Shown here piece after piece: positions 14,100 to 42,304 of a DNA stretch of 64,000 bases (position 1 is the stretch's first letter; every line of letters begins with the position of its first letter). The notes below the pieces were generated by a model, which saw nothing but the letters and a program-made list of their open reading frames with translations, did not search any database and had not been told where the DNA came from. This stretch comes from Methylobacterium sp. FF17. GTDB lineage: Bacteria; Pseudomonadota; Alphaproteobacteria; Rhizobiales; Beijerinckiaceae. The DNA is taken from assembly GCF_025813715.1 (NCBI RefSeq), contig NZ_CP107532.1, positions 5,118,001 through 5,182,000 of the forward strand. Reading direction: 5' to 3'. A program made the position numbers and the translations under genes.

Positions 14100-14786
14100 G
14101 TGGACTTGAGTATGGCCCCCGACGAGCCCTTGCTTGGTGAATCCTTGCCTGAAGAGGGATTGCCCCGCCACATCCAGGACCAGATCGGGCGAAGTCTCGA
14201 CGAACTCATTCCCAGGACCGATACGGTCGACATCGATACGAGGCTGGGTCGGGTCCTTCTTCGGCTCAGGGCCGCCCTGCTCGATGCCGAGGCGGAACGG
14301 CAGGTCACCAAGGCATTCGGCGACGAACTGATTGCCCTTGTGCCGCGCCTGCGCCGCTTCGCCTACCTCCGCACCGGCAACGCCGCGGAGGCCGACGACA
14401 TGGTCCAGGCAACCCTGATGCGGGCGTGGGAGCACCGGTCCCAGTTCGCGGCCGGCACCAACCTCGTCGCGTGGTTGTTCACGATCCTGCGCAACACGCA
14501 CCTGAATCAGCGCAAGCGCCTTCGACGCGAAGTCGAGGACGTCGACGGCGCCCTCGCGGGCAGGCTGTCGTCGGCTCCGGACCAGGAGCACCGTATCGCC
14601 CTCGTCGCCCTGCAGGCCGCGCTGAAGACCCTTCCGGCGGAGCAGCGCGAGACGCTGCTGCTGGTCACGGTCGATGGGCTGATGCACGAGGAGGCGGCGG
14701 CCGTCCTCGGCTGTCAGGTCGGAACCATCAAGAGCCGTGTGAGCCGGGCCCGCGATCGCCTCGCCATCGCATTGGACCTGTCCTGA
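14100..14786 (+). CDS. EcfG-type ECF sigma factor with NepR-like N-terminal extension
   Basis: The 228-aa protein has a sigma-2 region at about 78-141 (AEADDMVQATLMRAW, then NLVAWLFTILRN) and a sigma-4 region at about 170-222 (EAAAVLGCQVGTIKSRVSRA). These closely match the alphaproteobacterial general-stress EcfG group. The first 75 residues are additional: HIQDQIGRSLDELI at about 24-37, then DTRLGRVLLRLRAAL, resemble the two-helix core of the anti-sigma NepR, although the central EPVPDR-like turn is not kept. The 42304 gene on the minus strand has the same layout with a clearer NepR segment. It is divergent from the PAS-LuxR gene and about 520 bases from the LOV kinase. Which start is used between residues 1 and 5 is uncertain. 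Confidence 0.88.
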   Translation: MDLSMAPDEPLLGESLPEEGLPRHIQDQIGRSLDELIPRTDTVDIDTRLGRVLLRLRAALLDAEAERQVTKAFGDELIALVPRLRRFAYLRTGNAAEADDMVQATLMRAWEHRSQFAAGTNLVAWLFTILRNTHLNQRKRLRREVEDVDGALAGRLSSAPDQEHRIALVALQAALKTLPAEQRETLLLVTVDGLMHEEAAAVLGCQVGTIKSRVSRARDRLAIALDLS

Positions 14787-39975: not shown

Positions 39976-41141
39976 TACCAAGCCTCGTTGAGCGAGACTC
40001 ACGCGGGGTGGCGTCGATATGCGGGTCATGATTCTGTCCTCTGGTTTTGGAGCCTGAGGAGGATGCGATGGCTGCTCCGGTACCGCTGCGGTCGGATTTT
40101 GATGCCGAGGCCCTGCGTGTCTTAGCCAAGGGGTCACGTGATCCGTCCCAGACCCGCCGCCTGTTGGCGCTGTCTGTGATTGCCGCGGGTGGCTCGCGTT
40201 CGGAGGCGGCCGAGATCGGCGGGGTCGGGTTGCAGACGGTGCGTGATTGGGTGATGGCCTTCAACGCCGATGGCCCAAGCGGGCTAATCGACGGCAAGGC
40301 CCCGGGTGCCCGTCCGCGCCTGAACGCCGACCAGCGCGAGGTTCTCAGGGCCCTGGTCGAACAGGGGCCGACGCCCGCCGCCCACGGTGTGGTCCGCTGG
40401 CGCTTGTGCGACCTTGCCCAGATCCTGTGCGAGGATCACGGCGTGTCGGTCTCCGAGCAGACCTTGAGCCGGGTCTTGCGGACCATGGGCTACCGGAAGC
40501 TTTCGGCCCGTCCACGCCATCACGCCCAGGACCCGGACGCCGCGGCTGTTTTTAAAAAAGCTTCACCGACCGTTTGGCGCAGATCGCGCAGGCTGTCGGG
40601 GCCAAGCCCGTAGAGATCTGGTTCTGCGACGAGGCCCGTGTCGGCCAGAAGAACACGCTCACCCGACGCTGGGCTAAGCGTGGAACGCGTCCCTCGGCGC
40701 CAAAGGATCAGCGCACGGCCTCGGCCTACATCTTCGGAGCGATCTGTCCGGCCCGAGGCGTGGGGGCAGGCTTGGTTATGCCCCGTTGCACCACCTCGGC
40801 CATGGCCCATCACCTCGAAGAGATCTCCGCAACCGTCGCGCCCGGCGCCCACGCCGTGCTGCTGCTCGATCAGGCCGGCTGGCACACCACCAGGAAGCTG
40901 CCTGTGCCCGACAACATCACCCTGCTGCCCCTCCCAGCCCGCTCGCCCGAGCTGAACCCCGTCGAAAACCTCTGGCAGTTCATGCGGGACAACTGGCTCG
41001 GCAACCGCGTCTTCCGATCCTATGCCGACATCCTCGACCACTGTTGCAACGCCTGGAACAAGCTCATCGCCCAGCCCTGGCGCATCACGTCCATCGGACG
41101 GCGCCAATGGGCTCATGCATGCTGATCAATGAGAGTTGGTA
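39976..41141 (+). mobile_element. IS630-family insertion sequence, complete
   Basis: A left end CCAAGCCTCGTTGA and right end TCAATGAGAGTTGG form imperfect inverted repeats and are flanked by TA on both sides. This is the TA target duplication of IS630/Tc1-type elements. The repeat similarity continues a few bases outside (CACCTGA against CACCTCA). The element contains one transposase gene in two frames. Confidence 0.85.
40068..41125 (+). CDS. IS630 transposase, made by -1 frameshift
   Basis: ATG 40068 is preceded by GAGGAGG. The first frame (to 40613) is the N-terminal helix-turn-helix part, AAEIGGVGLQTVRDWVMAFN. The second (to 41125) is the DDE catalytic part: FCDEARVG (first Asp/Glu), LLLDQAGWHTT (second Asp) and LPARSPELNPVENLWQF (final Glu). 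At about 40548-40556, TTTTTAAAAAAGC lets a ribosome slip back one base, joining VFKK to SFTDRLAQIAQAV in a single product of about 350 residues. This arrangement is normal for IS630 elements, so the gene is probably active. Confidence 0.9.
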
Positions 41142-41295: not shown

Positions 41296-41520
41296 TCATG
41301 ACCGAATCGGAATACAGGGTACTGCACCGAAGCTTGTCGCGCGAACGACGGGTGCCCCACAGGCGGTCATCAGATCCCGCAGGAACTCCACCTCCTCCTC
41401 GGTCTCGGCCAGGGTCATGAACCCTGTCCGCGCATGCAGCACGCGCGCGCCGAGGAGCACGAGAAGATCGAAGCGCCCATCCGGCTGATCGACGATGGTG
41501 TATGTTACCCGCTGAGCCAT
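41296..41520 (-). CDS. Small protein downstream of the NepR-sigma gene
   Basis: 74 residues from ATG 41520: MAQRVTYTIVDQPDGRFDLL onwards with VLHARTGFMTLAETEEEVEF and CGAPVVRATSFG. It looks like a small soluble alpha/beta protein and is 58 bases downstream of the sigma gene on the same strand. The family is not recognised. Its position makes it a possible accessory or target of that sigma factor. Confidence 0.6.
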   Translation of the reverse strand: MAQRVTYTIVDQPDGRFDLLVLLGARVLHARTGFMTLAETEEEVEFLRDLMTACGAPVVRATSFGAVPCIPIRS

Positions 41521-41578: not shown

Positions 41579-42304
41579 TTACGCAGAAACGCCTTCCTCA
41601 GATGTCCCGAGAGCCGCCGCCAGAAATGCACGGGCCCGGCTCACCCGGCTCTTCATGGTGCCTGTCTGCGTCCCCAGGAGGGCGGCGGCCGCTTCGTAGG
41701 TCATGCCCTGGCCTGCCACGAGCAGCAGGGCCTCGCGCTGCGCTGGCGGCAGCTTGGCGAGGATCGCCCAAACCTTCTGCAATTCGATCCCATGCTCCTG
41801 TGAAGGAAGCTCGATGAGCTGTGCGGCCGCAGCGCCATCGGCATCCTCGACTTCGCGCCTGGCCTTGCGGCACTCGGTGTAGAACTGATTGCGCATGATG
41901 GTGAAGAGCCACGCGTTCAGGTTCGTGCCGGGCACGAAGCGATCCTGGCTCTTCCACGCCTTCAGCAGCGTCTCCTGCACGAGATCGTCCGCGCGGGTGG
42001 CGTTCACGACAAGCGACATCGCAAAGCCGCGCAGGCTTGGCAAAGCGGCGAGGAGACCGGCTTTGAACGAAGCAGCGGCGCGCGTGTCCTGAGACGCGAA
42101 TACCGCATCGAGTTGCGCGATCAGCTCGCGGAGCCGCTGAGGCGGCTCATCTGTCGTGAGCAAGCCGTAGGCGAGCTGAAGCTGGCTGCCGAGATGGTCG
42201 CGGACATGCTCCGGCAGTGCTGCGTTGCTTGCTGACTTCGCTTGCGCTTCGACGCCGATACGCACTGGGATCATGCAGGGTGGATCTCGTTCATGCGCTG
42301 CCAT
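41579..42304 (-). CDS. EcfG-type sigma factor fused to a NepR-like anti-sigma domain
   Basis: 241 residues. Residues 30-69 read LPEHVRDHLGSQLQLAYGLL then TTDEPPQRLRELIAQLD, matching the two helices and central EPxPxRxxxLxxxL turn of the anti-sigma NepR. Sigma-2 follows at about 80-150 (LRGFAMSLVVNATRADDLVQ and NLNAWLFTIMRN) and sigma-4 at 175-228 (PAQREALLLVAGQG, then EAAAALLGTQTGTMKSRVSR), both of EcfG type. In the known pathway NepR is a separate protein that sequesters EcfG until phosphorylated PhyR takes it away. Here inhibitor and sigma are one chain. ATG 42304 has AGGAG at 11 bases; ATG 42274 is an alternative that keeps both parts. Confidence 0.85.
   Translation of the reverse strand: MAAHERDPPCMIPVRIGVEAQAKSASNAALPEHVRDHLGSQLQLAYGLLTTDEPPQRLRELIAQLDAVFASQDTRAAASFKAGLLAALPSLRGFAMSLVVNATRADDLVQETLLKAWKSQDRFVPGTNLNAWLFTIMRNQFYTECRKARREVEDADGAAAAQLIELPSQEHGIELQKVWAILAKLPPAQREALLLVAGQGMTYEAAAALLGTQTGTMKSRVSRARAFLAAALGTSEEGVSA

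Follow-up and report, generated by a model that had tools for sequence, protein, structure and literature searches.

A NepR-like segment fused in front of an EcfG-type sigma factor in Methylobacterium sp. FF17, and a separate fusion of the same kind in sphingomonads

EcfG (ECF15) sigma factors act at promoters of the GGAAC-N16/17-CGTT type, and NepR (PF18557) is a small separate protein that binds both EcfG and PhyR. The switch built from these parts is established: NepR embraces EcfG and bars RNA polymerase, and PhyR mimics EcfG and removes NepR (PMC8103513, PMC4598750). In this switch nepR normally stands as a gene of its own, in many cases upstream of ecfG, with a 4-bp overlap described in S. 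granuli (PMC7083833). Anti-sigma and sigma parts within one chain, as in the protein that we describe below, are reported for IutY and some ECF36 proteins (PMC8999054); as that source presents them, the anti-sigma part of IutY is C-terminal, membrane-bound and freed by proteolysis, and ECF36 extensions contain membrane helices, whereas the extension considered here is N-terminal, NepR-derived and without such helices.

The closest described proteins are the EcfGs of M. extorquens, on which Francez-Charlot et al. 2016 (PMC4814048) described a NepR-like extension, suggesting an ancient fusion, calling its role unknown and confining it to the Methylobacteriaceae; the NepR likeness was, by their account, first noted in a 2009 PNAS paper. 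They reported NepR binding in vitro only for EcfG1 lacking the extension, and in two-hybrid tests only for truncated EcfG1 and EcfG5, while NepR pull-down in vivo recovered EcfG1 both as the full-length isoform and as one shorter by 14 residues, each with the extension. The same paper describes EcfG2 as apparently constitutively active, the EcfG3 level as under post-transcriptional control, for which proteolysis or translation may be responsible, and two NepR paralogues as binding PhyR, with no EcfG binding found for them.

The stretch of DNA that we analysed, called the window, comprises 64,000 nucleotides of Methylobacterium sp. FF17. On its minus strand, positions 41579..42304 encode a protein of 241 aa plus stop, characterized by ORF reading, Pfam and the closest solved sequence; the start is ATG, with a GAGGAG stretch upstream seen by eye. 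Pfam placed sigma-2 at residues 88-150 (41855..42043, minus strand; PF04542, Sigma70_r2, 2.8e-16) and sigma-4 at residues 176-228 (41621..41779, minus strand; PF08281, Sigma70_r4_2, 2.6e-14), both above cut-off, along with a PhyR_sigma2 match at residues 86-137 (3.6e-11). The best match among solved sequences was 5uxx_A (8.8e-41, residues 78-229; next best 1.4e-14), by its title a Bartonella quintana sigma-NepR co-crystal. Among the 25 NCBIfam models shown, that for the sigma-70 ECF superfamily passed its cut-off (83.5 against 42.9 bits) and the others fell below theirs, and in a tree built from 88 EcfG-like sigma domains, with no other ECF group as outgroup, the product fell among alphaproteobacterial EcfG. 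In front of these domains lies a NepR-like segment at residues 30-69 (42098..42217, minus strand), recognized by the sub-threshold Pfam match at 36-67, a genome match at 42104-42202 and profile-profile comparison. Segment and sigma factor form a single open frame, not a small separate protein, and on sequence grounds the ORF is an EcfG-type sigma factor preceded by a predicted two-helix NepR-like segment.

The gene fits the extended-EcfG class of Methylobacterium, since it lies in the clade, sits away from phyR and has an extension at least about 55 aa long. It shares with the M. extorquens AM1 proteins, as described in PMC4814048, the genus, a NepR-like extension of about 55 aa, the presence of several paralogues, a position away from the phyR locus and the lack of an EcfG-type promoter upstream; the likeness to the six AM1 EcfGs is one of kind, and the sister sequences of the window gene in the tree are the copies of Methylobacterium sp. 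Leaf117, which were also closest (80% identity) among the matches returned. The sequence-only reading had proposed a different wiring of the stress response, and the fusion on which that proposal rested is real; such fusions had already been published for Methylobacterium (PMC4814048), so the window gene is not new as a kind.

The reading that we favour, with a probability of about one in two, is that the segment is a former NepR, fused in an ancestor of the Methylobacterium copies, that masks the NepR-binding site of the very sigma factor that carries it. Its main support is the published truncation data, since the appearance of NepR binding on truncation (PMC4814048) is what such self-masking would produce. 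In this mechanism, NepR would have become fused to EcfG in that ancestor and been kept in most EcfG paralogues of this genome; the tethered segment would lie on the surface at which its sigma factor binds NepR and would partly shield that surface from free NepR and core RNA polymerase, until displaced by competition or by PhyR-phosphate capture. The fused copy would then not belong to the simple NepR-PhyR switch, or would have been tuned so as to depart from it. The apparently constitutive EcfG2 and the pull-down of extended EcfG1 isoforms with NepR, both reported in PMC4814048, speak against self-masking.

Several lines of evidence bear on the NepR origin of the segment. Pfam alone gave an ambiguous answer, with PF18557 matching residues 36-67 of the window protein at E 0.041 and 13.9 bits, under the curated cut-off of 25.7, though at E<=0.1 the same model matched 22 of the 34 aligned fused proteins, the best at 1.9e-7. 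At the family level, hhalign comparison of 28 Methylobacterium segments, the window segment included, with 30 stand-alone NepRs gave a probability of 98.0, E 2.1e-13 and a score of 56.4, and the top score among column-shuffled controls (n=100) was 14.6. The stand-alone profile used 30 of 56 NepR-match loci, leaving out 20 fused loci, three NepR-receiver proteins, two doubtful loci (L007 and L227) and, for no good reason, L113. The extension columns conserved in at least 90% of the 34 sequences, the start Met aside, are G39, L42, L61 and L65, which align with NepR core positions, two of them in iGraLR (its G and its L) and two at L residues of dLLrkL. The EPvP signature is largely gone from the Methylobacterium segments, which counts against self-masking. 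The NepR likeness before EcfG sigma-2 and sigma-4, originally read by eye, is therefore borne out by the profile comparison and the retained core positions; of the profile check proposed for it, the Pfam part fell short (13.9 against 25.7 bits) and the profile-profile part succeeded. The low Pfam score of the window segment also argues against a role as a PhyR decoy, in which the segment would mainly bind PhyR-phosphate and compete with free NepR, creating negative feedback. Such a role has been proposed for the PhyR-binding NepR paralogues without EcfG partners (PMC4814048), and NepR2 of S. melonis is described as a negative feedback regulator (PMC6599016), but we consider a decoy unlikely for the fused segment.

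The segment is under purifying selection. For residues 30-72 we obtained dN/dS of 0.29 against the relative L020 and 0.15-0.59 across ten pairs, figures that are rough because they come from the simple Nei-Gojobori method with high dS in several pairs. Sigma-2 gave lower values than the segment in 8 of the 10 pairs and sigma-4 in 9 of 10, and this faster evolution of the segment is a second point against self-masking. It would suit a relic, a frozen NepR that binds nothing and serves at most as a steric shield against free NepR or as a folding aid, as would the weak Pfam score, the loss of most of EPvP and the degenerate segments of two paralogues in this genome (L012 and L015); conservation of the four core positions and the dN/dS range of the segment argue the other way, and we regard a relic as improbable. 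The N-terminal tail, which is hard to align, gave dN/dS of 0.24-1.40 in eight computable pairs, three of them at 0.24-0.31. These values, rising to 1.4, and the location of the invariant positions in the NepR core rather than the tail make it very improbable that a disordered tail and the segment govern protein stability as a turnover tag, an idea that would accord with the post-transcriptional control of EcfG3 (PMC4814048) and with the low confidence of the first 30 residues in the structural model. In 27 of the 34 genes, that of the window among them, a start codon is absent between the segment and sigma-2, so segment-free sigma domains cannot arise from the window gene by starting between NepR helix 2 and sigma-2. 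Together with the homology to NepR, the purifying selection and this lack of an internal start count in favour of self-masking.

AlphaFold2 predicted two helices joined by a turn, at residues 32-50 (42155..42211, minus strand) and 56-72 (42089..42139, minus strand), with pLDDT blocks of 77-86. The gap to sigma-2 is short, with helix 2 ending at residue 72 and the next helix beginning at 75, and under self-masking this tie of a few residues would create a very high local NepR concentration. The models reached pTM 0.51 and 0.49, and the comparison is one of domain arrangement. By Foldseek and VIA-align, the placement of sigma-2 and sigma-4 in the model (pTM 0.51, 34 sequences) is unlike that in the NepR-bound structures 5uxx and 3t0y: in this low-confidence model sigma-2 alone aligned with 5uxx_C (86 residues, 1.7 A), 3t0y_A aligned over 123 residues at 8.4 A, and whole-chain fits to 5uxx gave 17.5 A. 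An arrangement that is not NepR-clamped, at this pTM, counts against self-masking but does not amount to a refutation, and the lack of a closed clamp would likewise be expected of a relic.

The assembly holds seven EcfG-like genes among 11 matches, six of them with a NepR-like extension; the seventh, L013, has none and adjoins its own separate nepR (48.8 bits). Elsewhere in the genome are PhyR and a divergent stand-alone NepR (56.4 bits), which, with the sigma domains and the NepR core, are shared with the canonical switch. The PhyR gene lies at C1:3636223 and the window fusion gene at C1:5159582. At E<=1, Pfam NepR detected four of the six extensions, namely L010 (27.7 bits, above cut-off), L011, L014 and the window gene; the genome search at this threshold found no match in L012 and L015, which also weighs against self-masking. 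L015 is a second fused paralogue within the window (14112..14786, plus strand), whose NepR-like segment is very degenerate and whose end branch is the longest in the sigma-domain tree. We looked for an EcfG-type promoter upstream of the window fusion gene and found none; among the seven EcfG genes, only L013 and L014 are preceded by a loose motif of this type. The single Microvirga copy examined (L051, Methylobacteriaceae) has no extension. Separately, a NepR-like segment followed by a response-regulator receiver domain was seen in this genome (L006:1093-1770, minus strand) and in two other Methylobacterium genomes (L125:1069-1752 and L126:1075-1761, minus strand); the segments scored 17.2, 23.6 and 22 bits respectively (cut-off 25.7) and the receiver domains 38-43 bits, and from their sequences these are possible NepR-receiver fusions.

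A small conserved gene of 74 aa lies 58 bases downstream of the fusion gene (41296..41520, minus strand), and its product had no Pfam match at E<=10. The genome scan gave 24 fused Methylobacterium loci, some with short flanks, and in 8 of them a relative of the small gene occurs near the fused EcfG: three directly downstream of the fused gene (L020, L021, L024) and five upstream on the opposite strand (L022, L023, L025, L028, L033). The small gene was found in 37 of the 59 genomes of the genus, and EcfG lay within 1.5 kb at only 11 of the 30 small-gene loci examined, so it is an associate and not an obligate partner. The suggestion that it forms part of the unit thus holds for its existence and its conserved neighbourhood, but not for an obligatory one. 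Past it, two overlapping frames at 40047-41125 (plus strand) resemble an IS630-type transposase by eye.

The genome scan also detected NepR-like and EcfG parts in one frame at six sphingomonad loci (L070, L073, L075, L085, L092, L096). In a quick tree of 88 of the 133 collected sigma domains, 28 Methylobacterium fusions formed one clade (support 96), and 14 sphingomonad fusions fell inside a sphingomonad clade (support 99) that includes 7 unfused genes. Placing all fusions in one clade was rejected (AU p 0.0013), and the tree thus indicates that the fusions in Methylobacterium and sphingomonads are separate; a single very old fusion followed by many losses would be an alternative history. A class-wide sample of 385 genomes contained 152 with a match, and among the matches listed, the stop-free alignments beginning no later than position 17 of 240 were all from Methylobacterium; at most seven candidates were scored per genome, and of the rows with an internal stop, G321 was inspected. 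In that last locus (G321:C1:2040634-2041311, L265), nepR and ecfG share a reading frame and are separated by just one TAA, which leaves the locus a single step from a fusion. Candidates from the class survey whose alignments began at 29, 38 and 37 of 240 (G047, G157, G193) and from the family survey described below at 19 and 23 (G538, G515) had no NepR in the sigma frame, each having a NepR-like stretch nearby in another frame. A Caulobacteraceae MAG locus (L053) aligned from residue 9, yet the NepR pattern was absent by eye.

The surveys are of genome collections, and that of the sphingomonad family covered 199 genomes, of which 178 had an EcfG match and 13 a fused frame after inspection; G397 and a second gene of G406 were confirmed as in-frame by a local NepR model (21.9 and 12.6 bits). 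We searched for NepR at E<=0.1 in 15 fused genomes, these 13 and two MAGs (G002, G006). The fused match stood alone in three (S. soli, 31.6 bits; S. microcystinivorans, 30.9; G478, 32.1; all above cut-off), and fused and stand-alone matches occurred together in seven (G001, G002, G003, G006, G406, G465, G527). Three genomes had a stand-alone match alone (G399, G533, G553), G492 had no Pfam match at this threshold, and the sole match in G397 was a weak fused one (17.3 bits), so a sole NepR copy need not score high. The local model detects weak copies that Pfam misses at E<=0.1, as at L196 in G492, and with it the flanks of L092, L085 and L191 showed no second copy. With Pfam at E<=0.01, at least one NepR was detected in 178 of the 199 family genomes; single genes are therefore usually seen, though a second copy may go undetected if it is divergent.

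In these three Sphingosinicella-type genomes, the fused segment, as the sole NepR match, presumably does the job of NepR, and each has one EcfG match at E<=1e-25. PhyR lies about 1 kb from the fusion in both of the sole-NepR genomes searched for it, S. soli and S. microcystinivorans, and in both a start codon is absent from the stretch linking the NepR segment to sigma-2. In S. microcystinivorans PF22029 matched nothing at E<=1e-5 except PhyR and the fusion, which are on one strand; in S. soli the model gave two additional, more distant matches. A kinase with an HRxxN-like motif, seen by eye, lies beside the S. microcystinivorans locus. The separate sphingomonad fusion, as convergence, and the sole NepR matches argue for self-masking. 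We found no earlier report of the sphingomonad fusion in the open-licence literature; this fusion, and its lying outside the Methylobacteriaceae, are new here, so the extension is not confined to that family, contrary to the statement in PMC4814048.

We tentatively suggest that two or more separate fusions of NepR to EcfG took place and that the Sphingosinicella switch has shrunk from three proteins to two, PhyR and a self-inhibited NepR-EcfG chain. In Sphingosinicella, PhyR-phosphate would capture the tethered NepR, open the chain and remain attached during sigma activity. If so, output would be set by an intramolecular equilibrium and not by NepR dose, and the Methylobacterium copies would represent the same device after secondary tuning or blunting in the presence of free NepR. 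The sphingomonad fusion offers a clean natural experiment on the role of the extension: S. microcystinivorans has no NepR match besides the fused segment and no EcfG-type match besides PhyR and the fusion, so that altering this one segment should show whether an anti-sigma factor can control its sigma factor in cis.
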